Positions 8,401-41,293 of a stretch of DNA of 42,396 nt are shown here, piece after piece (position 1 is the first letter of the stretch; every line of letters begins with the position of its first letter). A model generated the notes under the pieces. It did not search any database and had not been told where the DNA came from. It was given only the letters and a program-made list of their open reading frames with translations. The position numbers and the translations under genes are program-made. The stretch is from IMG/VR virus record IMGVR_UViG_3300013093_000091, positions 1 through 42,396 of that record; one strand, given 5' to 3'. Source of the DNA: a virus.

Positions 8401-8955
8401 AACGTTGATGAACCATTGCCTCCAAGTAGTACAGAACTTAATAATTTATTAGGTACAGACTTAAATTTAATTAAATCTATTTCGGATGAAATTGTATATC
8501 ATCCAGTTAGTTATATTTTATTATTTGGATCACAAGCCGACCTTAGTTTGCAAGCTACATTTAATGTAGTAAGAAACCCAAGTAGTACTGCAAGTGATAA
8601 TGACATTATTTCAAGAATAATCACAGCAATTAATCAATTCTTTGCTCTTGAAAATTGGAATTTTGGAGATACATTCTATTTTTCAGAATTATCGACTTAC
8701 GTTGTAACACAATTATTACCAGATATTACTAATTTTGTAATTGTTCCTAAACAAGGAAATCAGTATTTTGGCAGTTTATTTGAAATCCAATGCCCTAGCA
8801 ATAAAATATTCATCAGTTGTGCAACAGCATCTGATATTAATATTGTTGCAGGGCTAACATCTGATAATTTAAAAACAGTAACAGGTTCAGCATTAAATTC
8901 AGTAGTAACAAATCAAAACATTACTAGTGCAACATTCGGAGTAACTAATGGCTAA
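5470..8955 (+). CDS. 6: Baseplate wedge protein gp6
   Basis: An 1161-residue protein. The N-terminus has the typical gp6 opening: DRLNNLLVSEDWQKIYQSF, then NFPEDFNDYIESSEYLALIDVIAFLGQSIAFRVDLNARENFLELAERRDSVL broken over residues 50-100. In T4 this region builds the gp6 ring that links wedges. Near residues 350-450 FSDGTFGQLPLGNFRVYYRTSN and RMVTGEDYNISPL match the baseplate-J-like core. The C-terminus (HPVSYILLFGSQADLSLQATFNV, WNFGDTFYFSELSTYVV) resembles the gp6 dimerisation end. T4 gp6 is about 660 residues, so roughly 500 extra residues lie in the middle. ATG 5470 has AGGA six bases upstream and a late-type promoter. Its last 8 bases overlap the giant gene. Confidence 0.88.
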   Translation: MSSTDRLNNLLVSEDWQKIYQSFKNADFQSYDFENLRRTMINYIRTNFPEDFNDYIESSEYLALIDVIAFLGQSIAFRVDLNARENFLELAERRDSVLRLARMIGYNPSRNVPASGLLKVNAISTTETVLDSNGINLAGQYITWNDPSNINWYDQFIKIINSALLTTNQFGNPIDQASIYGISAGQYRFNGANNNVPVYSFSKTVAGRVMNFEITSTTFANQSYIYEEPPSIGNQIACVYRDDGFGAGSPNTGFFFNFTQGTLNQATFIVNQPTSNETIDIDTQNINNTDVWLWQLNQSTGLEDTLWSQVPALTGNNIIYNSLNNKIKTIYSVITRANDTVSLSFSDGTFGQLPLGNFRVYYRTSNNLTYTINASDILNVLITIPYTSSKGQTETLTLSLGLVTSVSNSSATETNASIKTNAPQTYYTQNRMVTGEDYNISPLSVTQKVAKVKSINRTASGISRYFDLVDPTGKYSSTNLFGDDGIIYQESYTSTTNFSYLTKTDIEGIIYNTIFPILNTPDLRNFYYANYINYITESLNISWYNKTSDSNSSTGYVGSSSDAVPYKVGSYTSTDLKYFTTGALAKFVAPTGQYFNTNNDNKLLSIPVVNGVQQALPSGGTTYIWAQVVSITTDGTASGTGLLSTGFGPITLNKIVPTGAVINQIIPQLNVTIQASVVTTMIDLIFNNKPFGLRYDATTQSWQIIFETNLNTTSAFSLGNQGDITNSQLDSSWILLFTTNNQYYTVNSRLLRYIFESNKEITFYFDSTQKVYDTVTSNTILDSLKILSINTQPDNTIPFTTDMAWQIISEYNGADGYTDPSKIVVAFADSENNGIVDNPQLFLDIVSPTTNSLQKYIIQQKYLISAGQEDYQYVSNADNTVIILSTQSNVGSLTQYTDGQYFYFVDKQVVKKYDASTSTLNPTLDYKVFVGRDNLKFQYIHNADYDSRIDPGASNIMDIYVLTTAYDTQFRQWLSGANVDEPLPPSSTELNNLLGTDLNLIKSISDEIVYHPVSYILLFGSQADLSLQATFNVVRNPSSTASDNDIISRIITAINQFFALENWNFGDTFYFSELSTYVVTQLLPDITNFVIVPKQGNQYFGSLFEIQCPSNKIFISCATASDINIVAGLTSDNLKTVTGSALNSVVTNQNITSATFGVTNG

Positions 8956-11900: not shown

Positions 11901-14900
11901 CTGCTTATACTCCAAAAATTTATTTAGATACTACTCTAGTTACACCTCAAATGATGATACAAGGGCACGATGGAAGTCTTGTATTAGCATACGGTGATTA
12001 TCGTGATAATTTAATTTTAGAATTAGAAAAACGTATCTTTAATAATATTAAAGTAAAATACGATCCTACTATTTTTGATATTGCTGATATTATTCCTAGC
12101 TACAATCGAACTAATGATTATAGTTTAGCAGAATTTAATAACGTATTGTCTTCAAATTTTTATAAATGGATTAGTTTAACTGGTCAAGATTTTACACTAC
12201 CGCTTAACTACGATTTAAACAATTCGTTTACATACAATTATTCTAATTCGGCAGCACCAGATGGCACTCCTCTTCCAGGTTATTGGAGAGGAATTTATCG
12301 TTATCTATTAGATACCGACCGCCCTAATTTATGTCCTTGGGAAATGTTAGGATTCAGTATTCAACCAAGTTGGTGGGTAGAAAAATACGGTCCTGCTCCT
12401 TATACAGGTGATAATTTACCAATGTGGCAAGATATTAACGATGGCATGGTTCGTGCTCCAAATAGTCTTCCATACAAAGTTCCTAAGTATGCTAAACCAT
12501 TTTTAATGGAGCATATTCCTGCAGATAGTGATGGTTTATTAAAGAGTCCACTATTTTCAGGATTAGCATTTGGCCCTATTACACAAAGCGTTGATAATAA
12601 TTTTGTGTTTGGCGATGTTGCTCCTGTTGAAAATGCATGGCGCAGAAGTAGTTACTATCCTTTCAGTGTAATACTTGCAAGTACTTTATTAACTCCTGCA
12701 AAAACTTTTGGTTTATTATTAGACAGATCACGTATAGTTAGAAATCTTGCTGGACAATTAGTTTATAAAGATACAGGATTACGAATTCGTCCTCAGGATA
12801 TTTTAATTCCTAGCATTTATTCAAGTACCAAACGAGTACAAACTGCGGGTATTATTAACTATACAATTGATCATATTTTAAATTTTATCTTTAGTAATAA
12901 TGTAAAGTCTTATAATACATACGTTAGTGATTTATCTAATTTAACAGCTCAATTAAGTTATCGAATTGGTGCATTTACTAGTAAAGATCAAATTAATTTA
13001 TTATTAGATAGTAAGACACCGTTGAGTTCGGGTAGTGTATTTGTACCTCAGGAAAACTATCAAGTTATATTGAATAGTTCTAGTCCTGTTAAAAAGATAA
13101 CTTATAGCGGTGTTATTGTTACTAAATTGCAAAGCGGATATGCTGTAAAAGGTTATAGCAGAACTCAACCTTACTTTACATATTATCCTTATATACAATC
13201 TGGGCCAACAATTAATGTAGGCGGCATTAGCGAACCTTATACTACTTGGACTACTGGTGAAGAATATGTTGCTGGTAGCGTTATTCAATTTGGCAATGTA
13301 TATTATAGAACTCCAACAACTATAGTTGCAGGAACAACATTTGATCCAACACAATTTGTTTCTTTAGGAGCACTACCAGTTATTGGCGGAACAAATGCTA
13401 TATTGAGAATACGTTGGGATAGATCAAGTCCGATTGTAGTTCCATACGGTACAACATTTAACACAGCACAAGAAGTTGTTGACTTCTTATTAGGGTATGG
13501 ACGCTGGTTAAAAGATCAAGGATTTGTGTTTGATGATTTTAATACAAATTTACAAGCAATTTCAAACTGGGAAACTAGTGCTAAAGAATTCTTATTCTGG
13601 ACAACACAAAATTGGTCGGCCGGTGCAAACAAGTGGAGCGATTGGGAACCAAATGTAGCAATTTCATATGGTACTGTTGTAAGATACAATGGAAATTATT
13701 ATAGCGCATTGTATAATAATCCTCCGTCTAATGAATTTAATGAAAATTTATATGTTGTAGTTAACGGTATAGATGCTGTTGGCAATAGTGTGATTAGTTT
13801 AAGTCCTAGCGCAAGTAAATTAACGTTCACAACTCATTTAGAAGTAGTCGATGATATTAAAAATCAATTTTATGAATATGAAATTTTTAAAGTTGATGGA
13901 ACACCTATACAACCACAATTTTTAGATAGCTATAGAAATGGCAATGTTGTAAACTATTCTCCAAGAACAACTGACGGAATTTATAGTGCTACATTCTATC
14001 TAATACAGCATGAACACGTAGTTGTAGTTGATAACGCTACAATTTTTAATGATATAATTTATAATCCAGAAAGTGGTTATAGACAAGAACGTGTAAAAGC
14101 CTCAGGGTATGTGAGTGTTGATTGGTACGGCGGACTAGATATTCCAGGTTTTATATTTGACGAAGCAATTATTCAAGCATGGCAACCATGGCAAGATTAT
14201 GCACTAGGGGACATGGTAAATTACCAAGGATTTTATTATAGTGCATTAACAGCCTTACCTGGTACAGAAAGTTTTGTAGCCGCCAACTGGACACGTTTGT
14301 CCGAAAAACCAACTGCACAGTTAATACCAAACTGGACATATAAGGCCACACAATTTACTGATTTTTATAGTTTAGATAGTGACAACTTTGATACTGCCCA
14401 ACAAACAATGGCGCATCATCTAATTGGTTATCAAAAACGTCAATATCTTGACAATATTATTCAAGATGATGTTAGTGAATTTAAATTCTATCAAGGAATG
14501 ATTCGTGAAAAAGGAACACAAAACAGTCTTAATAAATTGTTTAATGTTTTAAGTTCTGACAATTTAGAAAGTTTAGTGTTCTACGAAGAATGGGCATTGC
14601 GTTTAGGTCAATACGGCGCCGCACGAGCTTTTGAAAATATTGAATTTATTTTAGATGAATCTCAATTTAGAACAAATCCTCAAGGATTTGAATTATCTCA
14701 AATAGCAAATCCTAGTCTTGATGAAACATTTATTATACAACAAAATTCTAACGATGTGTATTTAAAACCGTTAGGATATAATTCAAATCCATGGCCTACA
14801 TTATCTACATATAAACCGTTCTTGCGTAGTGCAGGTTATGTAAATTCTAAAGATGTATTTTTAAGTATAGGACATCTATCAGAAATTGTACATCAAGATA

Positions 14901-17900
14901 TTAATACATTCTCCGAAGGGTCATATATTTGGGTCACCTTTGAAGGCCCAAGTTGGAATGTTTATAGATATACTGACTTGCATATTCGTGCAACTGCTGT
15001 AACTTATAGTTCTAATGTTCTTACAATTACTACTGAAAATATAGTTAATTTAAAAGTAGGAGATTGGATAGGCTTGTCTCAAGTTTCAATATTAAAAGGT
15101 TTCTATCAAATTGCAACAATTGAACTTAATAAGTTTACTATTAATACTACCATTACAGGTTTTCCAAGTCAATTTACACAGTCTAACGAATTATTAATTT
15201 ACGGATTTTTAAGTCAACGTGCTAGTACTATTGATAATTTAGATAGCATTCTTGCACCTAATGTAAATCCTGGAAGCCTAGTATGGACAGATGACCAAGG
15301 AAACGGCAAATGGGCTACTTGGAAATTTGAGCCAGTATATAATATTTCGTATCTAAACAATTCTGCCCCGCAAAGAAGTTTAGAGTTTGGATCAGTTATT
15401 GCTATTAGCAGAGATGGATCTATTTCTGCTGTAGGAACAGGATTCGGCCAAATTACTACTTACGATAAATCTAGTACAGCTCTTCCATGGGTACAGAGAC
15501 AAATTATTGAACCACCGTTTATTGCTAAAAATACTGTTTATACTGTTACTGCAACTACAGTACTTAACAGTACTACAGTTACTACATCCGCTGCCGCATC
15601 TGGAATGGTAGGAGGTATAATTACAGGTCAGGGTATTCCTTTAGATACACTTGTAGTTTCAGTAAGCGTGGGTGTTAGTTTAACAATTAGTCAACCTGCA
15701 AATGCATCAAGTTCTGGAACCACATACAATGTAACAACTAATCCTAATCCAGGAAATATTATTGCATCATCGATTGCAATATCTCCCGATGGCCAGTATA
15801 TGATTACAGGAAGCCCATTGGCTGGAAATGCAGTCACAAATTATCTTGGTCAGTATGATAGTAGTAAAATATACGGTCCTGGAATAATAGTAAGTGACAC
15901 AAACGAATTTACTGGATTTACTGATTATTACAAAGCTACACAGGTTGTTCCTGCTAACACTGATCCAATTGACGGATCAAATTCAAATTATTGGCAACCT
16001 GTTTATTATGTTCCTGTTAATAGTTACGGTACATGGGATGATACTGTAATCTATCCAGCGAATACTCTAGTAGTTTATAAGAGTAACGTATATAAGGCAG
16101 CCACCGAGGTATACGGTCAAGTAACTATCACAGTTACAAACACGGCAGCATCTACGTATTATTTGACTACCTCGGATACTAGTGTGCTAGCACCTGGCTA
16201 CGAAATTATTTTTTCAGGAAATGTATTTGGAGGAATTACAGTAGGTCTTATTTACTATGTAAAAACAATTATTAGTAGTACACAATTTACAATAACCGCA
16301 GTACAGAATAGTAATTTAACAGTACCATTAACTGCGGCATCGGGAATTATGTCTGCTACACAGCAAGCACAAGCTACTCCCGATAGCGGCAACGGTCAGT
16401 GGACTTTCCAATACGCACAAAATGGTTATTCTGCTCAAGGTGTAATTAGTTTGTATGAAAAAGATGCAAACAACATTTACTCTTTAATCGACACTATCAT
16501 AAGCCCAGTTCCAGTGGCCAACGAATATTTTGGATCAGCATTTGCATTTGGCAATGATGTAATTTATATCTCTGCTCCAGGCTATAGTTCTAGCACTGGC
16601 AGAGTTTATAAATTAAAATATTCTACGGTTGTACAAGCACAATCTGCATATAACCCTGTAGGAAGTTCAAATGCAACATTGCGTGTAACTAGTACAGTCG
16701 GTATAAGAGCAGGCATGTATGTCTTAGGAACAGGTTTTACTAGTGGTCAAACAGTTACTAGTGTAGTTGATTCTACTACAATGATATTGAGTGGAAGTCC
16801 TGATAGTACACCAAATGGTGTAATTAAATTTGCAGTTATTGGCTGGGGATATGATCAAACAGAAATTTATACAGGTATTGTATCTGGTATGAATTTTGGT
16901 TATAGTTTGGCTATTAGTAATGATAATTCTACTTTAGCAATTAGTGCCGCAAGTACTGTCGAAACAGCACTAGTAGCAATATTTAAAGCAACACCAACTA
17001 ATATATTAACAACAACTGCCGCTAGTGGCAACGGCACTACTGCAACGTTAACATTTACTCGACAAAATCTTGTACCATATGCAGTAGGAGATACTATCAC
17101 AGTATCTGGATTATCCCCAACTGGATATAATGGTTCTTATGTTGTAACGGCATGCACTACTACATCTGTTAGTTATGCTAACGCAACTATTGGATCACAA
17201 ACTCATGCTGGCACTATTACTGGAAATAGTTTGTCTGGATTTGGTCTAACACAAATACTAGCAGGTACAGATTATGATATTCAATTAGCTATATCGGATG
17301 ACGGATCTTATATTGCAATCTCCGATGATACAGTCAGTACTTCCCAAGTTAAACAACAAGGATCTGTGGCAATTTATAACAATGTCAACGGTGTATATGA
17401 ATTCTATCAAAGTATAGTTCCTCACCAGCCAGAGACAAATGGCCACTTTGGTCGCAAGATTGCTTTTATGAATAACTATTCAACTTTAGTAATCTATAGT
17501 CAATATGGCGATACATTTATAACCACGTCACTTGACGGCGGAACTACAACTTTTGATAAGAGTTCAACTGTATTACGAGCTCGTCAAACTAATAGCGGCC
17601 GTATCGATATCTATGACAAATATGCTAATAATTGGGTGTTCAGTGAAAGTTTAACAAGATCAAACCCAGTAACACCGGCTGGCGAATTTGTAGTAGGCAA
17701 CACTTATTCAATATTAACATTAGGAACTACTGATTTTACCCTTGTCGGTGCTAGTACAAATGCAATCGGTGTTACTTTCACAGCAACAGGCGACGGTAAA
17801 GGTACAGGTACTGCGGCAATAGTTACTAACGAATCTGGAATTGCAGACGGATACGGAACTGGATTAGCAGTTGGCGCGAACCACATCTTAGTTGGAGCCC

Positions 17901-20900
17901 CATTTGGTATAGATCAAGGATTAACTTCTGGTCGCGTATATGATTATGGAAAAGTCCAGGGCATCAATTCTTGGAATATTATCCATAGTGAAATTGATAA
18001 ACCAGATGTAACAAAAATTAAGAAAGCATTCTTGTATAATCGTGTATTAGGCACTTTATCAACTTATATAGATATTATTGATCCTGCACAAGGTAAGATT
18101 GCAGGTCCTGCTGATGAAGAAATTAAATTTAAAGCATTTTACGATCCTGCAACATATACTGTTGGAGATACTACTGTAAACGTAAATGTTGGTACAGCAT
18201 GGACTGATGATAAAATTGGTCAATTATGGTGGGATCTGAGAACAGCTAAATTCTTAAATGCTTACGAAAATGATCCAGTATATAAAAACACTAACTGGAA
18301 TACACTAGCCACTGGTGCAAGTATTGATATTTACGAATGGGTAAGTTATAAACAATTACCTGCGGTCTGGGATAGCCTAGCCGATACACCTGCAGGAATA
18401 GCACAAGGAATAAGCGGAACAAGTTTATATGGTAATACGGTTTATAGTGTAAAACAAACATATAATACTGCAACACAACAATTTAAAAATACATATTATT
18501 TCTGGGTTAAAAATAAAAAATTCATTCCTAATGTACCTGGCAGAAATATGGCTGCTCAAGACGTTGCTAGTCTAATAGCAAATCCAAGAGGACAAGCATA
18601 CACTTATCTTGCACTGACCGGTCCTGGTAGTTTTAGTTTAGTTAATGCTAAGTCTTATTTAAAATCAGACGAAGTGGTTCTAAGCGTAGAATACTGGACA
18701 GGACAAAAAACAGATCAAAATATTCATAGTCATTGGAAAATGGTTAGCAATGATCCGACAACATATATTCCTCCAGTAATCGAGCAAAAATGGATTGATA
18801 GTTTGTGTGGAAATGATACTGCCGGAAGACTAGTTCCCGATCCATCGTTACCTGTTAAGTTACGCTATGGTATTGAAAATCGTCCTCGTCAAGGAATGTT
18901 TGTAAACAGATTTGAAGCATTAAAAGAATTTGTAGAGCTTGCAAATATCATATTATCTGAAAATCAAATTGCAGAAAATTATAGCTTGAAAAAATTAGAA
19001 AGTTACGATCCAGTTCCAGATTCAACTTTAGGTTTATATGATGTAACATATGATACAGTTTCTGAATTGAGTTATGCAAGCATTACTAATTTTGTACAAC
19101 CAGTAATAATTCCTAATATTTCAGACGGAAAAATTATTGGAGTAACAATTACTACATCTGGTAAAGGTTATGTAACTGCACCTTATCTTAATGTATCTGG
19201 TTCAGGAACTGGTGCAGTATTAAGAACAGTTCTTAATGCAAAAGGTCAAATTACTGGTGTAACTGTATTATCTAGCGGAGAAGGTTACGGAAGCGATACT
19301 ACTTTATCGATACGAAGTTATTCAGCTTTAGTTACTAGTGATGCAGATGCTAATGGTAATTGGAGCATTTATACATATGATACTATACAACAAACATGGA
19401 CTCGTACATTAACACAAGCATACGATGTTAGAAATTATTGGAGTTACGCTGATTGGTACGGATCTTATACTGATACTACAGGAAAAGTACTATTCACCGC
19501 TTCGCAATTTGTAACAGCAGATTTTTCTGTTGCTACAATTAGCGATTTAAATTCACTAACACCTAATATTGGACAAACTGTTAAAGTTAGAACAAGCAAT
19601 TCTGGTGGATGGACATTATTGTACAAATACGCAGAATCTTCAAGTGTAGATTGGACACAAAGTTATGCGGTGGTAGGATTACAAAATGGTACTATAAAAT
19701 TAAGTAGCAGTTTGTATAATTTATCTGGCACATCTTTAGGTTTTGATAATGCAATTTATGATGCATCCGAATATGACTTGGTTGCGGCAACAGAATTAAG
19801 AATTATTTTAAACAGTCTTAAGAACGATATCTTTATTGGAGATTTAAACGGATCATATTTGGATTTATTCTTTGCTAGCGTACATTATGTACATAGCGAA
19901 CAGCCGTATGTTGATTGGATATTTAAAACAAGTTTTGTAAGAGCTCAGCATAATGTTGGCGGATTAAACCAACCGGTAACTTATAAACCTGATAATCTTG
20001 CAAACTTTGAAGATTATGTTAATGAAGTTAAACCATATAAAACAAAAGTAAGAGAATATATCAGTAACTACGACAGTATAGATCCTGCACAATTGCCTAT
20101 CACTGATTTTGATATGCAACCGTTCTACGATGGTACTAAAATGTCCTTGATAGAAGTTTATGCACAACAAGGAAAAATTATTGCAGAAAATCCAGCAATA
20201 CAAAATTATCCATGGAAATTTTGGTTAGATAATGTTGGATTTATAGTTACTGAAATTAAATTAACTAGTGGTGGTAGCGGTTATGTTACAGAACCTCAAG
20301 TTATTATTTCAGGACTTAGTGGATCTGGTGCAACAGCTCGTGCATTTATTAGTAATCAACAAGTTAATAGAATTGTTTTATTAACTTCTGGTAGCAATTA
20401 TTTAGAAGCGCCAACAGTTACCATTAAAGGAGGAACAATCCCGACAGGTGTTCCTGCAACTGCAACAGCTATTATTGGCAATGGTGTTGTTAGATCAAAC
20501 TATATTGGAATTAAATTTGATAGAGTTGATCAAAAATATTACATAACAAATTTAGAAAAAACTGAAATATTTACTGGTACAGGTAGCCGTTTACAGTTCC
20601 CATTAACATGGGGTCCAGATTCTAAAATAGGAAAAAGCACTGTAACTATAAATGGTGTACTTGCATTAAGGGACGGATACACTCTAAATATTGCTTCAAG
20701 TACAGCAAAAGGCTACACAACTTATTCAGGAACAATTACGTTTACAACTGCTCCATCAAAAGGCGCAAGTATTGTGGTTGTTTATAACATTGACGAGTCA
20801 TTATTATCTGCAACTGATCGTATACAATACTACTATAATCCAACTACTGGAGAGTTAGGTAAAGATCTTGCACAATTAATGACTGGTATCGACTATGGTG

Positions 20901-23900
20901 GTGTAATAGTAAATGGATTAGGATTTGAAATATCTCAAGGATGGGATAGTGTTCCATTCTACTCAGATAAATGGGATACTTATGATCCTGCTTATACAGA
21001 TTATGCAGTTGTAGTGGATGCAAATACACACATATTTACATTGCCTTATACTCCAACAGCTAATACTCAGCTAAACATTTATAGAACAGCAAATAATGTT
21101 GATTCTTATTTGTCAGACGGTGTTACTAAAACTTATTCTTATGATATACACGATGTAAGTCCTTATGTTACTGTATCCAATACAACAAAAACTAAAGGAG
21201 TTAATGTTGCATTTACATCTATAAATGTTGTATCAGGTGTATTTGGAATTATTTTAACAGTAGCTAGTACTGCAAATATCGCAGTAGGCATGACTGTAAC
21301 TGGTAATGGGTTTGTTAGTGGGCAGACAGTTGTTGCTATACAAAATTCTACAACAATTACTTTAAGTGGTCCTCCTGATAGTCAACCAAGCGGCACATTA
21401 ATTTTTACACGTAATATTGCTGGAAGTTCAACATTGACTGTTTCTAGTATAGCAGGTGTACGTGTAGGAGATACTATTTCTACAGCCGATCAAAGTTTAT
21501 CTTTATTTGTAGAAGGCACAACGGTAAAATCAATATCAGGTACAACTGTAACATTAAGTTCAATATTGTATTCTGACATTCCAGATTCTACTTATGTAGT
21601 GTTTACAAGAACATTAGTACAGCCTACAGATGTAACTATTTCTACAGCTGGCACAATTGAACTAACAAATTTATCTAACAGTGGTATTATTTCTGGAAGT
21701 ACAATTAGTATTATTGGAAAATTAAATCCAATAAGATTAGATGATCCTAATTATAATATTGCTCCATACTTTTCACAATTAATTGAGGCAAATGCTTATG
21801 ATACTGCATTTAATTCTAATTTCCAAAGTTTACTAGTTGGACTTGCAATATTAAATCATATTAACACATACAGTTATAAAGTATCAGAAACTGTAGCGTC
21901 GATTAATGCATTAGCAGAATCTATTAGTAGCTTACCTGCTATAGCAGGTAATTCTGCAGCCGAAGCAATTATTGACACTAATACTGCTATTATAACAAAT
22001 ATTATTAGCGGCGGAGTAGTCCCACAACCAGTGTTCAGTCCATTAACTTCGACATCTCAAGGACAAATACATGCGGCTACTTTGTTAAATGATAATATTC
22101 CTTTTATCCAAGCAGAGTTAGTACAGTATATTACTAATAATCATCCAGGCATAACTTATAATGTTACTGATTTTCAAACAAGAATACAGTACATTGTATT
22201 AAGTTTGTGTTATGATTTGACTTATGGCGGTAACAGAGAATCTGTATATAGTGGTATACAATATTGGATTTATAATAACAGTATTCCTTTTATACAACCT
22301 AGTGTTTATTGGAGCGGAATATTTGGCTATTTGAATACAATAGCTCAAAATATTATTACTAATACAACATTTACAAGATTACAAACACATTTCTTCCAGT
22401 ATACAAACAATTCGTTGTCTGGAGGTAGTACTGCCAGTTCAAGTATATCTTCTAATATTACTACTATCACTTCTATTGTTAGTGGATCATTCTATCCATC
22501 AGTAGTTGCAACACAACCTACATTAACAAATGCAACAGCTCCATTGCAAACTGTTGCAAATGCAATTTTAACAGCTGAATCTAAGTTAATTCCTTCAGTA
22601 AATCCAAATGCACTTGTTAATACTTTCTTGGCAGACGGATCTTCAAACACATTTAGTATTCCTCAACCATATACATTGATAGACGGCGGTGCAAGTACAA
22701 CTACTGTTGATATTACAGTAGACGACGGCGGCTCAGCTGGTACAGTGTTTGGATCTTTGGATACTATCGAAGATGGTAGTAATGCAAGTTCTGTTGTGTT
22801 TACAGTAGCAAAAGGTGACGAATTTATTATTCGTCAAATTACAAGCGACGGATCTGTAACTCCACCAGATGCAGATTATGATACAGCATTAAGCGGCGGC
22901 GATACTAGCACACTCAATGGTGTGTATGCTACTGCAACTGGACTAGCAGCCGACGACATTATACTTGACGGTGATAATTTTGTTACTGAAACTTCAAGTC
23001 CTGCTCCGGAAGAAGTAGTTCCTGGACAATTAGTTGATACTTTAGCAATTAAAGTTTATGATAAACCTACAGCTGGATCAGCTATGATTAAAGTTGATAA
23101 TTATTTAGGAGATGGTTCTACAACAACATTTAAAATTAGTCAAACTCCTAACAGTACCGGTGCAGTAATTGTAAAATCTAATGGATTAATAAAAACTATC
23201 ACTAGTGACTACGATATTGATTATAAAAATAGTAGTGTTGTATTCCATTCAGCACCTGTAACAAATTCTGAAATTAGTATTTTTAGCATAGGATTTGCTG
23301 GAGAAAATATACTAGATATTGATTATTTTATCGGTGATGGTACAACAGTAGAGTTTGTCACAAATGCAAAATGGCAAACTCCAGTGAATACACTGATTTA
23401 TGTAAACGGCGTAGTTGCAAGTCCTCAGATTTTTAAAACTGATCAAACTTATGAATATTCTAATGCAATTGGTTTTAGATTTGCAGTTGCTCCTCAAGCC
23501 GATGCATTAATTAATTTTATTATTGTATCTGGAAATCAACCTACTTATACAGTTACTGGAATAGAAACTGTTGCTACTACTAGTGCGACACGTACTTATA
23601 CATTACAAAATCCAATAGGAAACGGATTACCAAATGAATCAAATATGATTGTACGTGTTGACCAGACAATATTACCAGCACCAGTTAACAGTTATTTTAC
23701 AATTAGTAGCAACAGATTAAATTATACAATTGATCCTACTAAATTTGTTCCTTATAGTGTAGACATTGCAAATATAAATGTATTAGTTGGTAATGTTGCT
23801 TTAGTATTAGGTACAGACTATATTGTTGATTTAGGTGGAATTACAATCAAAATTAACAAAAATGTTTATACACTTTATAAAGGTCAAACATTAATAGTAA

Positions 23901-25219
23901 GTATAACTTCAACAAATGGTTATACTTATAATCCATCGACACACCAAATAACATTTGCACAGACATATGATAACACACATTTGGTACAAGTTATTGGATC
24001 ATACCAACATGAATTTTTAGATATAGAAAGAACTACAATTAATGCAAGTAGTACTGCTACTTTAGAACCTAATTCTTCTGCATTCTATTATTATGAAAAT
24101 GTACAAGGAGGTATTGTACAGTTAGATAGACCTGTATTAAATGATTATTATGTTTGGGTAATTAAAAATAACACACTATTGACACCTGTAATTGATTACA
24201 AATTAAATTCTGATTATCAAAGTATTACTTTGGCATCTGATTTGTTATCTTCTGATAATATTACATTGATTACATTCGGTAGCAATATACTAAAACCAGG
24301 CATTGCATACATGCAATTTAAAGATATGTTAAATCGTGTAAGTTATAAACGTTTAAGTAAAGCTAAACAAACTACACTTGCACAAGATTTACATTGGAAC
24401 GATACAGAGATTGTATTATCAGATGCCGCTAATTTTGATTTACCAAATCCATCTGCAAATAAACCAGGCGTAGTAGAAATACGAGGCGAGCGCATAGAAT
24501 ATTTTGCTATTAATGGAAATACATTAAGCCAACTTCGCCGTGGCACTTTAGGTACAGGAGTATACAATGTAAATCTTGCTGGTACTTTTGTTCAAGATAT
24601 TGGCGGAGCAGAAACTATTCCATATGCTGATAATCAGATTGTTCAACAAGTTATTAGTGACGGAACAAGCACAATTAATTTAGATTTTGTTCCAAAAGAT
24701 GTAAACGAAGTTGAAGTGTTTGTAGGCGGCTATAACGATGGCGCAGTTTGGGAACCAGGAGCAGTTTATGCGGTAGGTAGTATTGTTAATGTAGGTACAT
24801 ATACATACAGATGTAGAACAGCTCATATTAGCGGATCTACTTTCTTCAGTGCTGTAACTACAGTAACAATAAACTCAGACGGAACAACTACTGCATTGTC
24901 GTTAAATGTACCGAGTTCAAATGTGTGGAAATTCTTCATTGGTAATATACGTTTGAAGAAGGTTGGATACAGCGCATTTAACATAAACAATGCACCAGCA
25001 AGCCCAGAAGGCGATGTTGAATTCTTACCTGATTTTACAGTTGATGGTACTACTGCAAAAATAACATTAACTAATTTATTAAGTTTTGGTACACAAGTTA
25101 CTGTTATAAAAAATACAGGAACAGCATGGGATAATACCGTAAATATCATGGATGATACTGGAAAAATTAGCGATTTCCTAAGATCTCAACCTGGTATTTG
25201 GTATTCAGAGTACAAATAA
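8948..25219 (+). CDS. Giant 5423-residue baseplate/tail wedge protein, multi-domain
   Basis: A single uninterrupted frame, starting at ATG 8948 (GGAG at 8938-8941) inside the end of gp6. Residues 17-150 carry FLPTFYQTSANRKFLQATVD and FYSWNPHIDWDKFVNFQNYY, a pattern I associate with the wedge-initiator (gp7-position) proteins of marine T4-like phages. Residues 175-275 look cupredoxin-like (YRGQTYIFEINSPGNPFSF). Carbohydrate-binding-like W..Y..G..V.Y.G..Y modules occur near 1431, 1565, 1745, 2302, 2360 and 5265. Residues 2145-3005 hold seven propeller-blade motifs with inserts between blades. Two glycine-rich 'GGSGY..P' modules sit near 3400 and 3770. The C-terminus includes VVEIRGERIEYFAINGN and SQLRRGTLG. 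No gp7, gp8 or gp10 gene is seen separately in the window, so this protein may cover several wedge or receptor-binding roles. The exact role is inferred. Confidence 0.6.
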   Translation: MANSQDAQKGNTSLSIKFLPTFYQTSANRKFLQATVDQLFQPGTVKKINGYIGRENAKSATGTDIYITAPESDRQNYQFEPSITIKDSLGNNTFFKDYIDYINQVGVFGGNTSNHARLNKQEFYSWNPHIDWDKFVNFQNYYWLPYGPDTIKIVGQQRAIESTYTVSIESEINNNEYVFTPNGFTRNPVLKLYRGQTYIFEINSPGNPFSFKTARSIGTSDRYLTNFIDNYGVEVGTVTFTVPLDAPSLMYYQSETDINLGGAIEVLDISDDTYIDITSDLLGKKTYKLPNGTYLSNGMKVAFAGNVTPSSYASGEYYVEGVGTSIKLISTTTLEVINSYTTEETIPFDSDKFDTNPFSDATGFAGTPDYILINRASTDYNNWSRYNRWFHKDVIISSASYNGNVASLDQKARAIRPIIEFEANLKLANSGTTAISDIDIVDDYTTDAFSVIEGSFGYNVDGIPLAQGQRIIFTADEDRLIRNKIFEVQFLDVLHLSSGSRQIHLAEITDPATLTNIIPVVLVKSGVKYQGKSFWYNRTTWVLGQQKTTINQAPLFDVVDSNKISYGDTSVYNGSTFAGTTLFSYKIGTGSNDSALGFPLSYRNISNIGDIVFNFTLTTDSFQYKESTAVITQDINVGYLIKQDYAGNLVYQNGWTTCTVPNTQAAIRIYKNSGLTNNFNIDIFDDITNLSDLVVRIYVNGKRLDPTLWSISNGPQYKVVNLTTAIGTSDVLTIRAFAAQPINANGYYEIPLNLQNNPLNNTMGDFTLGEVIDHVESIVDNLSTTFVGSFPGSGNLRDLGSITQYGTKFVQHSGPLSTAIYHITTESNNMIRSIEQSRDDYSNFKRNFIKTATNLGIDGDPVTLVDLIMQKLNKDKPNTAPYYFSDMIPYGAAVKTNLTVVDHRIKQYPLSSVFTLDVLSNKAVGVYLNGVQLIYGQDYTFSDQGFVIIDSSISMNNGDTITTVEYDSTDGSFVPATPTKYGMWPAYTPKIYLDTTLVTPQMMIQGHDGSLVLAYGDYRDNLILELEKRIFNNIKVKYDPTIFDIADIIPSYNRTNDYSLAEFNNVLSSNFYKWISLTGQDFTLPLNYDLNNSFTYNYSNSAAPDGTPLPGYWRGIYRYLLDTDRPNLCPWEMLGFSIQPSWWVEKYGPAPYTGDNLPMWQDINDGMVRAPNSLPYKVPKYAKPFLMEHIPADSDGLLKSPLFSGLAFGPITQSVDNNFVFGDVAPVENAWRRSSYYPFSVILASTLLTPAKTFGLLLDRSRIVRNLAGQLVYKDTGLRIRPQDILIPSIYSSTKRVQTAGIINYTIDHILNFIFSNNVKSYNTYVSDLSNLTAQLSYRIGAFTSKDQINLLLDSKTPLSSGSVFVPQENYQVILNSSSPVKKITYSGVIVTKLQSGYAVKGYSRTQPYFTYYPYIQSGPTINVGGISEPYTTWTTGEEYVAGSVIQFGNVYYRTPTTIVAGTTFDPTQFVSLGALPVIGGTNAILRIRWDRSSPIVVPYGTTFNTAQEVVDFLLGYGRWLKDQGFVFDDFNTNLQAISNWETSAKEFLFWTTQNWSAGANKWSDWEPNVAISYGTVVRYNGNYYSALYNNPPSNEFNENLYVVVNGIDAVGNSVISLSPSASKLTFTTHLEVVDDIKNQFYEYEIFKVDGTPIQPQFLDSYRNGNVVNYSPRTTDGIYSATFYLIQHEHVVVVDNATIFNDIIYNPESGYRQERVKASGYVSVDWYGGLDIPGFIFDEAIIQAWQPWQDYALGDMVNYQGFYYSALTALPGTESFVAANWTRLSEKPTAQLIPNWTYKATQFTDFYSLDSDNFDTAQQTMAHHLIGYQKRQYLDNIIQDDVSEFKFYQGMIREKGTQNSLNKLFNVLSSDNLESLVFYEEWALRLGQYGAARAFENIEFILDESQFRTNPQGFELSQIANPSLDETFIIQQNSNDVYLKPLGYNSNPWPTLSTYKPFLRSAGYVNSKDVFLSIGHLSEIVHQDINTFSEGSYIWVTFEGPSWNVYRYTDLHIRATAVTYSSNVLTITTENIVNLKVGDWIGLSQVSILKGFYQIATIELNKFTINTTITGFPSQFTQSNELLIYGFLSQRASTIDNLDSILAPNVNPGSLVWTDDQGNGKWATWKFEPVYNISYLNNSAPQRSLEFGSVIAISRDGSISAVGTGFGQITTYDKSSTALPWVQRQIIEPPFIAKNTVYTVTATTVLNSTTVTTSAAASGMVGGIITGQGIPLDTLVVSVSVGVSLTISQPANASSSGTTYNVTTNPNPGNIIASSIAISPDGQYMITGSPLAGNAVTNYLGQYDSSKIYGPGIIVSDTNEFTGFTDYYKATQVVPANTDPIDGSNSNYWQPVYYVPVNSYGTWDDTVIYPANTLVVYKSNVYKAATEVYGQVTITVTNTAASTYYLTTSDTSVLAPGYEIIFSGNVFGGITVGLIYYVKTIISSTQFTITAVQNSNLTVPLTAASGIMSATQQAQATPDSGNGQWTFQYAQNGYSAQGVISLYEKDANNIYSLIDTIISPVPVANEYFGSAFAFGNDVIYISAPGYSSSTGRVYKLKYSTVVQAQSAYNPVGSSNATLRVTSTVGIRAGMYVLGTGFTSGQTVTSVVDSTTMILSGSPDSTPNGVIKFAVIGWGYDQTEIYTGIVSGMNFGYSLAISNDNSTLAISAASTVETALVAIFKATPTNILTTTAASGNGTTATLTFTRQNLVPYAVGDTITVSGLSPTGYNGSYVVTACTTTSVSYANATIGSQTHAGTITGNSLSGFGLTQILAGTDYDIQLAISDDGSYIAISDDTVSTSQVKQQGSVAIYNNVNGVYEFYQSIVPHQPETNGHFGRKIAFMNNYSTLVIYSQYGDTFITTSLDGGTTTFDKSSTVLRARQTNSGRIDIYDKYANNWVFSESLTRSNPVTPAGEFVVGNTYSILTLGTTDFTLVGASTNAIGVTFTATGDGKGTGTAAIVTNESGIADGYGTGLAVGANHILVGAPFGIDQGLTSGRVYDYGKVQGINSWNIIHSEIDKPDVTKIKKAFLYNRVLGTLSTYIDIIDPAQGKIAGPADEEIKFKAFYDPATYTVGDTTVNVNVGTAWTDDKIGQLWWDLRTAKFLNAYENDPVYKNTNWNTLATGASIDIYEWVSYKQLPAVWDSLADTPAGIAQGISGTSLYGNTVYSVKQTYNTATQQFKNTYYFWVKNKKFIPNVPGRNMAAQDVASLIANPRGQAYTYLALTGPGSFSLVNAKSYLKSDEVVLSVEYWTGQKTDQNIHSHWKMVSNDPTTYIPPVIEQKWIDSLCGNDTAGRLVPDPSLPVKLRYGIENRPRQGMFVNRFEALKEFVELANIILSENQIAENYSLKKLESYDPVPDSTLGLYDVTYDTVSELSYASITNFVQPVIIPNISDGKIIGVTITTSGKGYVTAPYLNVSGSGTGAVLRTVLNAKGQITGVTVLSSGEGYGSDTTLSIRSYSALVTSDADANGNWSIYTYDTIQQTWTRTLTQAYDVRNYWSYADWYGSYTDTTGKVLFTASQFVTADFSVATISDLNSLTPNIGQTVKVRTSNSGGWTLLYKYAESSSVDWTQSYAVVGLQNGTIKLSSSLYNLSGTSLGFDNAIYDASEYDLVAATELRIILNSLKNDIFIGDLNGSYLDLFFASVHYVHSEQPYVDWIFKTSFVRAQHNVGGLNQPVTYKPDNLANFEDYVNEVKPYKTKVREYISNYDSIDPAQLPITDFDMQPFYDGTKMSLIEVYAQQGKIIAENPAIQNYPWKFWLDNVGFIVTEIKLTSGGSGYVTEPQVIISGLSGSGATARAFISNQQVNRIVLLTSGSNYLEAPTVTIKGGTIPTGVPATATAIIGNGVVRSNYIGIKFDRVDQKYYITNLEKTEIFTGTGSRLQFPLTWGPDSKIGKSTVTINGVLALRDGYTLNIASSTAKGYTTYSGTITFTTAPSKGASIVVVYNIDESLLSATDRIQYYYNPTTGELGKDLAQLMTGIDYGGVIVNGLGFEISQGWDSVPFYSDKWDTYDPAYTDYAVVVDANTHIFTLPYTPTANTQLNIYRTANNVDSYLSDGVTKTYSYDIHDVSPYVTVSNTTKTKGVNVAFTSINVVSGVFGIILTVASTANIAVGMTVTGNGFVSGQTVVAIQNSTTITLSGPPDSQPSGTLIFTRNIAGSSTLTVSSIAGVRVGDTISTADQSLSLFVEGTTVKSISGTTVTLSSILYSDIPDSTYVVFTRTLVQPTDVTISTAGTIELTNLSNSGIISGSTISIIGKLNPIRLDDPNYNIAPYFSQLIEANAYDTAFNSNFQSLLVGLAILNHINTYSYKVSETVASINALAESISSLPAIAGNSAAEAIIDTNTAIITNIISGGVVPQPVFSPLTSTSQGQIHAATLLNDNIPFIQAELVQYITNNHPGITYNVTDFQTRIQYIVLSLCYDLTYGGNRESVYSGIQYWIYNNSIPFIQPSVYWSGIFGYLNTIAQNIITNTTFTRLQTHFFQYTNNSLSGGSTASSSISSNITTITSIVSGSFYPSVVATQPTLTNATAPLQTVANAILTAESKLIPSVNPNALVNTFLADGSSNTFSIPQPYTLIDGGASTTTVDITVDDGGSAGTVFGSLDTIEDGSNASSVVFTVAKGDEFIIRQITSDGSVTPPDADYDTALSGGDTSTLNGVYATATGLAADDIILDGDNFVTETSSPAPEEVVPGQLVDTLAIKVYDKPTAGSAMIKVDNYLGDGSTTTFKISQTPNSTGAVIVKSNGLIKTITSDYDIDYKNSSVVFHSAPVTNSEISIFSIGFAGENILDIDYFIGDGTTVEFVTNAKWQTPVNTLIYVNGVVASPQIFKTDQTYEYSNAIGFRFAVAPQADALINFIIVSGNQPTYTVTGIETVATTSATRTYTLQNPIGNGLPNESNMIVRVDQTILPAPVNSYFTISSNRLNYTIDPTKFVPYSVDIANINVLVGNVALVLGTDYIVDLGGITIKINKNVYTLYKGQTLIVSITSTNGYTYNPSTHQITFAQTYDNTHLVQVIGSYQHEFLDIERTTINASSTATLEPNSSAFYYYENVQGGIVQLDRPVLNDYYVWVIKNNTLLTPVIDYKLNSDYQSITLASDLLSSDNITLITFGSNILKPGIAYMQFKDMLNRVSYKRLSKAKQTTLAQDLHWNDTEIVLSDAANFDLPNPSANKPGVVEIRGERIEYFAINGNTLSQLRRGTLGTGVYNVNLAGTFVQDIGGAETIPYADNQIVQQVISDGTSTINLDFVPKDVNEVEVFVGGYNDGAVWEPGAVYAVGSIVNVGTYTYRCRTAHISGSTFFSAVTTVTINSDGTTTALSLNVPSSNVWKFFIGNIRLKKVGYSAFNINNAPASPEGDVEFLPDFTVDGTTAKITLTNLLSFGTQVTVIKNTGTAWDNTVNIMDDTGKISDFLRSQPGIWYSEYK
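15382..17905 (+). repeat. Seven propeller-blade motifs inside the giant protein, split by inserts
   Basis: Within the giant gene, the pattern 'fG.s.AiS.Dgs.iaisap' recurs seven times, at about residues 2146, 2270, 2525, 2648, 2776, 2831 and 2968 (for example IAISPDGQYMITGSP, LAISNDNSTLAIS, LAVGANHILVGAP). This is the FG-GAP/beta-propeller type of repeat. Between blades lie unrelated small modules: about 2197-2265, 2302-2460 (with carbohydrate-binding-like pieces), 2567-2628, 2684-2760 and 2908-2961. The repeats are at protein level; no obvious nucleotide-level duplication is seen. Confidence 0.55.
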
Positions 25220-35488: not shown

Positions 35489-36168
35489 TGTACGATATTA
35501 TATTCATTAGTTATAATGAAGTATACGCAGATCAGAATTTTGAAAAGCTAACAGAACGATTTCCTTTAGCTAAAAGAGTTCACGGAATCCAAGGAATACA
35601 CCAAGCTCATATCGTAGCCGCTCGTAAATCATTTACAAAAATGTTTTGGGTAGTGGATGCCGATGCTATAATATTAGATAATTTTAATTTTGATTACGAA
35701 GTTCCTGAATGGGATTTAGATGTAGTTCACGTATGGCGCAGTTTAAATCCTATTAACAATCTAAGTTACGGATATGGTGGTGTTAAACTACTCCCAAAAA
35801 AATTAACTATGGATATGAACACAACTACTATAGACATGACTATGAATATTAGTAGTAAATTTAAAGCCATAGATGAAACTAGTAACATTACAGCATTTAA
35901 CACAGATCCATTTAGTACATGGCGTAGTGCATTTAGAGAATGTTGTAAATTAGCAGTAATTAATAACGAAGAATCTTTAAATAGATTAGATGCTTGGTGT
36001 CAGTTAAATGATAATGCCGAATATGGATTATATGCCTATTTAGGAGCATTACAAGGCAAAGAATACGGAGAAAAAAATGCCTCTAACTTAGAGGCACTTA
36101 CTAAAATTAATGATTTTGATTGGTTAGCAGTTCGTTGGCTAGCGGAAAAATCTCAGCTATCACTTTAG
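35488..36168 (+). CDS. Glycosyltransferase-like protein 4 (DAD motif)
   Basis: A 226-residue paralogue of the preceding protein. YDIIFISYNEVYADQNFEKL, AKRVHGIQGIHQAHIVAAR and MFWVVDADAIILDNF (D57-A-D59) give the same layout. The GYGGVKL and TWRSAFRE segments are kept, the latter probably near the acceptor or catalytic site. It is about 75 residues shorter at the C-terminus than its partner. The last 62 bases overlap, tail to tail, the 3' end of thyX on the other strand. Its residues NASNLEA are encoded by a minus-strand terminator hairpin, so this stretch serves two purposes. Substrate unknown. Confidence 0.63.
   Translation: MYDIIFISYNEVYADQNFEKLTERFPLAKRVHGIQGIHQAHIVAARKSFTKMFWVVDADAIILDNFNFDYEVPEWDLDVVHVWRSLNPINNLSYGYGGVKLLPKKLTMDMNTTTIDMTMNISSKFKAIDETSNITAFNTDPFSTWRSAFRECCKLAVINNEESLNRLDAWCQLNDNAEYGLYAYLGALQGKEYGEKNASNLEALTKINDFDWLAVRWLAEKSQLSL
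36071..36096 (-). terminator. Intrinsic terminator of the thyX operon, inside a convergent gene
   Basis: Read on the minus strand: TGCCTCTAA-G-TTAGAGGCA (36096-36078), then seven T (36077-36071). The arms are a perfect 9-bp inverted repeat, folding as an 8-bp stem with a 3-base loop. It begins 11 bases after the thyX stop. There is no T run on the other side, so it should work only for minus-strand transcripts. Confidence 0.88.
36107..36168. other. Tail-to-tail coding overlap of glycosyltransferase 4 and thyX
   Basis: The last 62 bases of the plus-strand glycosyltransferase are also the last 62 bases of thyX on the minus strand. This is where the two transcription units of the window meet. 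No plus-strand terminator was seen here. Confidence 0.85.
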
Positions 36169-38581: not shown

Positions 38582-38869
38582 TTATCTGGTCTGTAATAAC
38601 GGACAGGCAATTGTGAAAAAACTTAGTTCTTTTTCAGACTCGAACCCAATGCGAGTGTTGTACACTAAAGTATTGGTATTATCGAGGGTAATTCCCTGTC
38701 CTATATAATACCTATTATTTAGATTCTTGCGGATCCAGTTATCCACAGATTTGATTACAGTAGGGTTGTACTTGTCTATTGTAGTATATTTAAAATGCGG
38801 ACAAGCAAACTCAACCCTACGTAAACCGTAATAGTCTAAAGGATTGGGTTTGCCATTTTTTAAAGCCAT
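38582..38869 (-). CDS. Small unknown protein downstream of the VWA gene
   Basis: A 95-residue protein that I do not recognise. It reads as mixed alpha/beta (YYGLRRVEFACPHFKYTTID, VIKSVDNWIRKNLNNRYYIG) and ends with ELSFFTIACPLLQTR. Two cysteines (in ACPHF and ACPLL) share an A-C-P pattern, but there are too few for a zinc site on their own. It touches the VWA gene by one base (TAATG), so the two are probably coupled, and a partner role to the VWA protein is a fair guess without direct support. Confidence 0.65.
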   Translation of the reverse strand: MALKNGKPNPLDYYGLRRVEFACPHFKYTTIDKYNPTVIKSVDNWIRKNLNNRYYIGQGITLDNTNTLVYNTRIGFESEKELSFFTIACPLLQTR

Positions 38870-40053
38870 TACGCATGTTCCTTAACTTGCTCGTAATAAG
38901 CATATTCGCCGAATGGTGGAACAATCTTATCGTTACCGTGGATAATGAATACTGTATCACAGTAGTTTTCATCTCCCCAACTACCCCAAGGATAACCGTC
39001 AGTAAACATGATAAACTTTTTAGGTTGGATATCATTGTCCTTCATGTATTCCCAGTTAGCATCGAACTCAGTTCCGCCACCACCCATTGGCTCGTATTCA
39101 TCAAATTCGTCCATTGAGTAGCCATCGTAATCTTGCTCATTGTAAACTTTAGTATCAAAGCACCATACTTTAATCTTAAAGTCTCTGTACTCTTGCATAA
39201 TACCCTTAATTTCTGTTAAGAAGTCTTTTGCTTGTTCGTCGCCAATAGAACCTGACATGTCGATTGCAACACAGATATCAATTGTTTCTTGAAACTGTTG
39301 TCCCGGCAAAATTGCATTCATATGCCAACCCTTACGGTTAGGACGTATAAATGTAAAGTCATTCTTAATAGTGCTTTGGATTTGTTGACGCAAAATTTCA
39401 CGCCAATTCATCTTAGGCTCTGTTAAATCCTTAATCATTCGTTGTACACTTGCAGGAGTATTACCTGCACCCGCGGCCTGTGCGGCTTGCATTGTAGCTT
39501 CACGAATTTCATCACGGATTTGTTTTAGCTCTTCTTTAGAGTATTTAGGTTGTCCGTCTTTGCCGTTCTCGCCCCAGTCGATGTGATCGTCTAGTAGCTG
39601 ACCCAATTGATTAAGTTCTTCCTCGTCCATTTCGTCGAAGATTTTATCATAGACTTCTTCCGCACCCATTCCATAGTATTTCTGGTCATGGAAGATTTGA
39701 ATGCCTTCGATAACGTGGTCACCAATTCTGTCACGTACCAATTGTCCGTTTACGCAATAGTCTGCGGCAATATTAAAAATGCGTGGATTACGACTTTCGC
39801 GACGACTCATGTGATCAAATACATTATGCAAAATTTCGTGTGCAATAACAAATTCAACCTGCTTAACTGACAAGGGTTCAAAAAATTTGCGATTAAAATA
39901 GATAGTGCGTCCGTCTGTTGCGGCAGTCATCATCCATTCACTGCCTTCTTCGATTTTTAGGCGAGTAGCCATATTACCAAAGAAAGGATGGCGAAGTAGT
40001 AGACCCACACGGGCTACAATAATTTTGTCGATAATTGGATCTGTATGTGACAT
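38869..40053 (-). CDS. VWA-domain protein with metallopeptidase-like N-terminus
   Basis: A 394-residue protein. Residues 60-100 contain FVIAHEILHNVFDHMSRR with H72-E73-xx-H76, a zincin-type HExxH, followed by a possible third ligand in NIAADYCVN (D98). Residues 130-190 are acidic and helical. From 255 a von Willebrand A domain has the MIDAS metal site: D265-M-S267-G-S269 (DMSGSIG), GGGGT with T328, and FTDG with D352. This is the DUF2201-type architecture. VWA proteins of this kind work with MoxR AAA+ ATPases, and one is encoded directly upstream. The start ATG 40053 follows AGGAAAGGA and its own consensus promoter. The substrate of any protease activity is unknown. Confidence 0.87.
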   Translation of the reverse strand: MSHTDPIIDKIIVARVGLLLRHPFFGNMATRLKIEEGSEWMMTAATDGRTIYFNRKFFEPLSVKQVEFVIAHEILHNVFDHMSRRESRNPRIFNIAADYCVNGQLVRDRIGDHVIEGIQIFHDQKYYGMGAEEVYDKIFDEMDEEELNQLGQLLDDHIDWGENGKDGQPKYSKEELKQIRDEIREATMQAAQAAGAGNTPASVQRMIKDLTEPKMNWREILRQQIQSTIKNDFTFIRPNRKGWHMNAILPGQQFQETIDICVAIDMSGSIGDEQAKDFLTEIKGIMQEYRDFKIKVWCFDTKVYNEQDYDGYSMDEFDEYEPMGGGGTEFDANWEYMKDNDIQPKKFIMFTDGYPWGSWGDENYCDTVFIIHGNDKIVPPFGEYAYYEQVKEHA

Positions 40054-40077
40054 TGTATTCCTTTCCTATATGTATAT

Positions 40078-40106
40078 ATTATAACACCTCCCGAAGGAGG
40101 TGTCAA
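40078..40106 (-). promoter_or_regulatory. Full-consensus sigma-70 promoter for the VWA gene
   Basis: On the minus strand, TTGACA (40106-40101), exactly 17 bases, then TATAAT (40083-40078). Both hexamers are perfect. Predicted transcription start is near 40071, giving a leader of about 18 bases to ATG 40053. The spacer and the end of the -35 hold the inverted repeat listed separately. Confidence 0.88.
40084..40103 (-). terminator. 8-bp hairpin with TTCG loop inside the promoter (terminator, operator or both)
   Basis: Minus strand ACACCTCC-TTCG-GGAGGTGT: eight perfect pairs closing on C(TTCG)G, the extra-stable RNA tetraloop that T4 uses in intercistronic hairpins. In transcripts coming from moxR it would fold about 20 bases after the stop. 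It is followed by TATAATATAT rather than a pure T run, so termination may be partial. As DNA it is a palindrome across the promoter spacer, where a repressor could bind. Confidence 0.7.
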
Positions 40107-40122: not shown

Positions 40123-41211
40123 TTATTTTTCAGTTGCGGCGCTAATATACTTACCGTATTTGGCATGGAAATCATCAAAACATTTGATTTCGTCTGGATC
40201 CAATGGCAATTTATATTGGCTAAGAGCAACCTTAGTACCCATAATAACCAATTCTGTTTCGAAGTTATTCATCATAAATTCGAAGAAGTTATTAACTTGG
40301 TCATTCCAGTTTTTAGCATTTTTATCGCAAGAATCCTTCAACTCGTAGCACAAACTAATAGTAAGTGAGTACATAGCTGAAATTTCTTTAGAATCCATCT
40401 TTTTAACCTTGCCTGACAAGATATCGCTTGGATTAGGCATCTTTGATGCAACTTTACGGTGAGCCATAAAGCTAACTGCCAAACCTTCACCAACAGAACC
40501 TGATACCAAGTCTGTAAGTGTATCAACATCTACATCATCATCTGTAAGCAATTCGCTTACGAACGACCAGCTACGGGGAGTAGCAAACGCACGGCTTGAG
40601 CTTTTTGGATCAAAATCGTAGAGGGATTTTTTGCTAAAAGACAAGAAACCAATTACATCCTGATGAATCTTGTTTTCGACAGCCCACTCAAAATAGTCAT
40701 CCCAATCAACTTGCATTTCCAAGTGAACAAAACGATTAGCCAACGGTGCAGGCATACGGAATGTAACACCTTTGTCAGTTTCTCGGTTACCAGCCGCAAC
40801 TAGCACTACATTGTCTGGCAAGTGATATGTGCCAACACGACGATTCAAAATTAGCTGATATGCCGCCGCTTGTACAGCAGGAGCCGCAGAGTTCATTTCG
40901 TCCAAGAACAAAATGATATTCTTGTGTTCTTTTGCCATTTCTGCACTTGGCAATTCTGACGGAGGAGCCCAACGCATTGTACCATCGTTGGAATCAAAAT
41001 ATGGAATACCTTTAATATCTGTAGGTTCCCAAAGGCTCAAACGAACATCGATTACATGAGCATCTGTCTCAGTACCGAGTTGTTTGATAATGTCTGATTT
41101 GCCAATACCTGGAGGACCCCAGAGGAAGATTGGACGCTTGTTTTTAAAAGCCTTACGTAGAGACTTTTTAGCACCACTAGGGCCTACTGTACGACTAGCA
41201 ATTTCTGGCAT
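40123..41211 (-). CDS. MoxR-type AAA+ ATPase
   Basis: A 362-residue protein. Walker A is WGPPGIGKSD (G32-S39), Walker B is IILFLDEMNSA (D104-E105), sensor 1 is VAAGNRETDKG (N142), and the arginine finger region is PLANRFVHLE (R160). The DEMN with a following P-A-VQAA segment and the ANRF motif fit the MoxR/AAA_5 class, which remodels proteins and often activates a partner VWA protein. The partner is the next gene. A C-terminal helical domain (about 230-350) completes it. The start ATG 41211 has AGGAA upstream and a sigma-70-type promoter about 50 bases away. All ATPase residues are present, so it is expected to be active. Confidence 0.9.
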   Translation of the reverse strand: MPEIASRTVGPSGAKKSLRKAFKNKRPIFLWGPPGIGKSDIIKQLGTETDAHVIDVRLSLWEPTDIKGIPYFDSNDGTMRWAPPSELPSAEMAKEHKNIILFLDEMNSAAPAVQAAAYQLILNRRVGTYHLPDNVVLVAAGNRETDKGVTFRMPAPLANRFVHLEMQVDWDDYFEWAVENKIHQDVIGFLSFSKKSLYDFDPKSSSRAFATPRSWSFVSELLTDDDVDVDTLTDLVSGSVGEGLAVSFMAHRKVASKMPNPSDILSGKVKKMDSKEISAMYSLTISLCYELKDSCDKNAKNWNDQVNNFFEFMMNNFETELVIMGTKVALSQYKLPLDPDEIKCFDDFHAKYGKYISAATEK

Positions 41212-41264: not shown

Positions 41265-41293
41265 ATTGTATAGGAAACTGCTATCTATGTCAA
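41265..41293 (-). promoter_or_regulatory. Sigma-70-type promoter for moxR
   Basis: Minus strand TTGACA (41293-41288), 17-base spacer, TACAAT (41270-41265). The -35 is exact and the -10 is 5 of 6. The -35 overlaps the TGA stop of the upstream gene. Predicted leader to ATG 41211 is about 45 bases. Confidence 0.78.

Follow-up and report, generated by a model that had tools for sequence, protein, structure and literature searches.

Twenty-nine bases on the minus strand of the window (the whole 42.4-kb IMG/VR record that was analysed) hold both a full-consensus sigma-70-type promoter and an RNA hairpin that fills its spacer. The reading that we consider probable is that the hairpin forms the 3′ end of the moxR message, most likely by terminating it, and is fused to the promoter of the downstream VWA gene, with the -10 box replacing the U-tract of the terminator. 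Promoters and 3′-end hairpins are normally annotated separately; in this case both are maintained by selection within a single 29-bp stretch. The moxR and VWA genes of the window resemble those of jumbo phages (BF, 121Q, CBB, PA5oct, Paride). The parts of the element and its neighbours are as follows.

40078–40106, minus strand: fused element, a sigma-70-type promoter plus spacer hairpin, TTGACACCTCCTTCGGGAGGTGTTATAAT; conserved and covarying in relatives
40101–40106, minus strand: -35 box TTGACA, of which ACA (40101–40103) also forms the outer end of the 5′ arm of the stem
40084–40100, minus strand: 17-bp spacer CCTCCTTCGGGAGGTGT, read from the sequence
40096–40103, minus strand: 5′ arm of the RNA hairpin, ACACCTCC, from its covariation with the 3′ arm
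40092–40095, minus strand: TTCG tetraloop, of the YNMG class in relatives
40084–40091, minus strand: 3′ arm GGAGGTGT, of which TGT doubles as the extended -10 (TGn)
40078–40083, minus strand: -10 box TATAAT, which is also the first bases of the A/U-rich RNA tail beyond the hairpin
40123–41211, minus strand: upstream gene, MoxR-like AAA ATPase, 362 aa (Pfam AAA, AAA_5, AAA_3; ORF list)
38869–40053, minus strand: downstream gene, DUF2201 metallopeptidase/VWA-like protein, 394 aa (PF13203, E 7.6e-40; PF09967, E 1.7e-14)
40060–40067, minus strand: Shine-Dalgarno-like AGGAAAGG of the VWA gene, read from the sequence
41265–41293, minus strand: separate moxR promoter-like site TTGACA-17-TACAAT, without hairpin, 11/12 match

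Read from 40106 to 40078, the element is TTGACA-CCTCC-TTCG-GGAGG-TGT-TATAAT (29 bases). It matches the sigma-70-type consensus at 12/12 positions with a spacer of 17 bp, and the TGT that ends the spacer supplies an extended -10 (TGnTATAAT). An earlier, sequence-only reading of this DNA had described a perfect TTGACA-17-TATAAT promoter, and that description is correct for the minus strand; it gave no strand and omitted the extended -10. The TTCG inverted repeat that it placed across the spacer and into the -35 box is there as well: ACACCTCC-TTCG-GGAGGTGT (40103–40084) makes an 8-bp stem occupying the spacer and the ACA of the -35. As RNA the stem lengthens to 10 bp, including one G-U pair, and the 61-nt stretch around the hairpin folds at -16.9 kcal/mol (z -2.4). 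The element begins 16 nt past the moxR stop codon and ends 24 nt ahead of the VWA start codon. Elsewhere in the window, a single open reading frame of 5423 aa occupies 8948–25219; a Pfam search with its first 1017 aa gave no match.

The promoter by itself is weak evidence, since a TTGACA-N15-19-TATAAT sequence, of which the window holds only one exact copy, also arises in 18 of 100 shuffles. A random 17-nt spacer would contain a perfect 8-bp stem with a probability of about 3e-5. Taken with the comparative data, this agrees with the earlier claim that the overlap is unlikely by chance; judged by those data, the combination of promoter and hairpin is far beyond it.

Homologous loci were retrieved by means of the downstream VWA protein and not by the motif. 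Promoter and hairpin were present in 79 of the 80 nearest loci; the sole miss, L028, has a different gene adjoining VWA, and in its record the element precedes that other gene. When a more distant VWA protein served as anchor, 78 of 80 loci in this second set had the fusion. In all, 157 of the 160 VWA-anchored loci hold both parts, although the sets overlap and these loci are not independent events, being related by descent and with several contigs in both sets. Outside the stem, TTG and TATA.T lie near 2 bits in the VWA set and the flanks are poorly conserved. The -35 TTGACA reaches 2.0 bits per position in that set and is unchanged across 54 aligned variants, and almost every homologous locus has TATAAT or TATACT as its -10. 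The stems of the VWA set include CCTCC/GGAGG, GGACC/GGTCC, CCACC/GGTGG, CCGCC/GGCGG, GGGTC/GACCC, GGAGC/GCTCC and GGGCC/GGCCC among others. Pairing is thus kept while bases change in relatives, the outcome that the earlier reading had named as support for selection on the hairpin, at these loci and at the other junctions described below, and no moxR–VWA junction was seen to keep the -35 and -10 without the inverted repeat. A promoter for VWA is strongly supported by this sequence conservation, which also favours the earlier suggestion that VWA transcripts would start here. In the Pseudomonas phages Paride and PA5oct (L423/L680), moxR and VWA are separated by genes annotated as homing endonucleases; in L028 they are likewise separated, by one or more other genes.

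Across 54 distinct variants of the element, 98.8% of stem cells are paired (70.1% when shuffled), and the covariation score is 0.675 against 0.140 ± 0.020 for shuffled alignments, with none of 500 shuffles reaching 0.675. The 98.8% is slightly flattered because only variants with 7 or more of the 8 pairs entered the alignment (64 of 68 distinct 29-mers, thinned to 54); the protein-anchored counts are unaffected. Related sequences may beat shuffles without any structure, and such an artefact of kinship is argued against here by the many distinct stems and by slid controls, in which moving the partner by 1–3 columns gave covariation of at most 0.292.

The mismatches in these stems bear on which molecule is selected. 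A G-T pair on one DNA strand is A-C on the other. In the 5-bp stems of 60 distinct hairpins we count 25 G-U wobbles and no A-C (14 and 0 without the loop-closing pair), a bias towards the sense strand that a DNA palindrome would not have, and which argues that it is the sense RNA hairpin that is selected. Three gp32 variants, whose extended -10 is TGC, do have A-C instead of A-T as the outermost pair. YNMG loops occur in 29 of 32 distinct VWA-junction hairpins, and the usual loop-closing pair is C-G; YNMG and GNRA are named as stable RNA tetraloop classes in PMC5311481, citing Proctor 2002. Together these patterns give strong evidence that the hairpin acts in sense-strand RNA. Since a start at the VWA promoter lies past the hairpin, the selected RNA must come from transcription entering from upstream. 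The hairpin belongs to no Rfam family, with two matches far under the gathering score.

Readings in which the inverted repeat works as DNA were rejected on the covariation and the strand-biased wobbles. The palindromic operator that the sequence-only reading had proposed, with a repressor dimer binding it to control VWA, has in its favour a perfect repeat situated between the -35 and the -10. We nevertheless find this very unlikely, given that the stem is rewritten among close relatives (CCTCC, GGACC, CCACC, CCGCC, GGGTC, GGAGC) with pairing alone kept, that the wobbles are of the sense-strand type only, where a DNA site would show no strand bias, and that the loops obey RNA tetraloop rules. 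The promoters of the N4 virion RNA polymerase are DNA hairpins recognised by the phage polymerase, and there too hairpin and promoter coincide; the present element differs in that selection acts on a sense RNA and the promoter is of the sigma-70 type. If the hairpin here were a DNA promoter of the N4 or F-plasmid Frpo kind, whether as a cruciform or as single-stranded DNA, the use of the same bases by hairpin and promoter would be accounted for. This reading is less credible still: on the sense strand YNMG and GAAA are stable loops of the RNA type, G-U is tolerated while A-C is not, the -35 and -10 hexamers are full consensus at normal spacing, and the hairpin is missing from other consensus promoters of these viruses. 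Among 100 exact TTGACA-17-TATAMT sites in 33 virus records, 33 have a hairpin (one per record) and 67 do not, a count that says only that the hairpin is no general feature of these viruses' promoters, since the records were chosen for holding the element. To coincidence, or functionless sequence from a common ancestor, we give almost no credence; about one shuffled window in five would contain a lone consensus promoter, but compensatory change runs through the 54 distinct variants and the fusion recurs at unrelated junctions.

With a sense RNA as the target of selection, the position of the hairpin becomes informative. Among viral sites, 63 of 70 hairpin promoters have a co-directional stop codon within 25 nt upstream, compared with 47 of 92 sites with the same core and no hairpin (Fisher 8e-8); the VWA junction recurs many times among the 70, and outside it the figure is 23 of 30, in a group that includes a few weak, chance-like stems. 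At the moxR–VWA junction of CBB, GAP32, Kaldavass, SNUABM_12, BF and 121Q there is a hairpin with a U-run, of the intrinsic terminator type, and one also follows moxR in Paride and phage G, where other genes come next. Having its own promoter-like site (41293–41265), moxR looks like a one-gene unit, and in several related records a consensus promoter site precedes the element by about 1.2 kb. The position of the hairpin therefore points to the 3′ end of the moxR message, where it is probably a terminator. In phage 121Q (L424, 1819–1852), TTGACA abuts the moxR terminator hairpin and TATCCT follows 17 bp on, possibly an intermediate form.

The element has the stable, GC-rich RNA hairpin after a gene that is expected of a terminator, but a U-tract directly after the stem is absent, the tail being the A/U-mixed UAUAAUAUAUACAUA. 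By the d'Aubenton-Carafa formula it scores -25.9 against +6 to +27 for U-run terminators, with the window's own terminator at 36099 scoring +26.9. By hybrid energy, the RNA:DNA hybrid of the tail falls in the weakest 7.5% of the window's 8-mers. The earlier claim that the hairpin ends moxR transcripts is likely from its position, although the canonical U-tract is absent. A classical U-run terminator sits at 36075–36099 of the window, between convergent genes, so that this phage does use ordinary terminators.

Two explanations of the RNA hairpin have to be weighed. The hairpin might protect or define the moxR mRNA 3′ end after Rho-dependent termination, or after RNase cleavage in the AU-rich tail, with the promoter independent of it. 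This would suit a stable sense RNA hairpin that is selected despite the absent U-tract and negative terminator score, and would suit the retention elsewhere of weak hairpins with GAGATT loops. The eight sequenced relatives with a classical intrinsic terminator after moxR, and the weak hybrid of the tail, count against it, and we regard it as possible but rather unlikely. It is the main rival to the terminator with a -10 in place of its U-tract, which we favour.

On the favoured reading, moxR transcripts begun at the moxR promoter, which lies about 1.2 kb before the element, would arrive there, and an 8–10-bp stem with a C(YNMG)G loop would fold in the RNA 16 nt past the moxR stop codon. Polymerase would meet this stable hairpin and then the weak A/U hybrid made by the -10 box, and the moxR transcript would end. 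As DNA, the same bases would direct host RNA polymerase, or a sigma-70-programmed one, to start VWA transcription about 7 nt after the -10. Since the -10 itself makes a weak A/U hybrid, it could stand in for the U-tract, placing the new start at the old stop. The data show the sequence itself, a promoter core and hairpin that are conserved together, compensatory changes, selection on the sense-strand RNA, and a place behind a stop codon at which relatives carry a terminator; promoter activity, termination and the efficiency of termination we infer.

The general notion that promoters and terminators can overlap is not new. Song et al. (2024, PMC11347151) report that polymerase can remain bound to DNA once it has terminated and then reinitiate at the promoter closest by, and by analogy an element whose stop and start are the same bases would be an extreme case of the proximity discussed there under recycling termination and facilitated reinitiation. 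The stronger proposal, a general phage device in which the terminating polymerase passes straight to the promoter that overlaps the terminator and upstream termination thereby feeds downstream initiation, we think unlikely. If the fused reading is confirmed, the element would lend itself, as a natural example, to testing whether polymerase is recycled once it has terminated, and would serve compact genomes and engineered operons as a minimal stop/start part.

The element is found in several phage groups, before replication genes (clamp loader, gp32) as well as in the MoxR/VWA pair. A pattern scan of IMG/VR returned at least 120 matching stretches. Among the matches listed, fully paired stems (G-U allowed) were present at 73 of 81 sites, in 80 loci; of 112 distinct contexts among the matches listed, a relative of moxR or VWA is in place in 91 and missing in 21, the latter including junctions before clamp-loader, gp32, tRNA-like and unknown genes. 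In L126, the fused element directly precedes a putative tRNA-Ser-like sequence. Generic viral sites of the form TTGACA-N14-TGTTATAAT have a fully paired 5-bp stem in 6 of 87 cases among the matches listed.

In a set anchored on the gp32-like ssDNA-binding protein, a spacer hairpin is present in 52 of 80 loci, with loops of TTCG, GAAA, a GAGATT hexaloop and a few others. The sequence-only reading had set the element against the T4 early promoter layout; this comparison is loose, in that the relatives found are jumbo phages resembling 121Q, BF, CBB and PA5oct, although the same fusion does occur at T4-like gp32 junctions. The GAGATT hairpins are weak (-7.7 kcal/mol) and by rule poor terminators. 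At the gp32 junctions of L534, L537, L548, L551 and L562, the GAGATT hexaloop is constant and the 7-bp stems covary freely, and these look like protein-bound RNA loops rather than terminators. Before gp32 in L547, L549, L550 and L568, a longer paired stretch, GAGTATGG...CCATACTC, without a -35, replaces the fused element. The clamp-loader set, an independent test case, has the hairpin promoter in 3 of 80 loci by scan, and at that junction the fusion is therefore patchy. In L507, the sequence upstream of the clamp-loader gene is TTGACAGTGACACAGAGGAGTAGTAAAATACTCCTCTTTTTTT, with a -10 in the loop of a U-run terminator.

The element shares all the consensus parts and the spacing of bacterial sigma-70 promoters (TTGACA-17-TGnTATAAT), but differs from them in having a spacer that encodes a conserved RNA hairpin. 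Sites with identical letters around TTCG number 72 in bacterial genomes, of which 2 are fully paired, and the fusion thus looks virus-specific. The intrinsic terminators with CTTCGG hairpins of T4-like phages, such as Morganella phage MP1, likewise combine a GC stem with a C(UUCG)G loop and lie just downstream of a stop codon; they carry a U-run after the stem, whereas the window's element has a consensus -10 there. Annotation tools that require a U-tract would miss the function of such a hairpin. We found no description in the open-access literature of a conserved class in which a hairpin fills the spacer of a full-consensus promoter, an absence that is weak evidence, and no fused terminator–promoter overlaps in the portions consulted of the LUZ100 and Kayvirus transcriptome papers.

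BLAST searches with two hairpin variants gave no full-length match among deposited phages. Another variant gave one near-match in a sequenced, named phage, Aeromonas phage Ahp1_CNU-2021 (TTGACACCTCCTTCGGGAGGTGTTATTGT), where the upstream gene ends 3 nt before the site and the next gene starts 20 nt after it. The site spans MT161459.1:149285–149313, and its -10, TATTGT, fits the consensus less well. It has no relative in the deposited-phage collection, and provides an example in a phage from a named host. A different geometry of overlap is seen in Enterococcus phage Haystack (L677; PV544173.1, near 1448), which has TTGACA-17-TATAAT with the -10 in the loop of a long hairpin.
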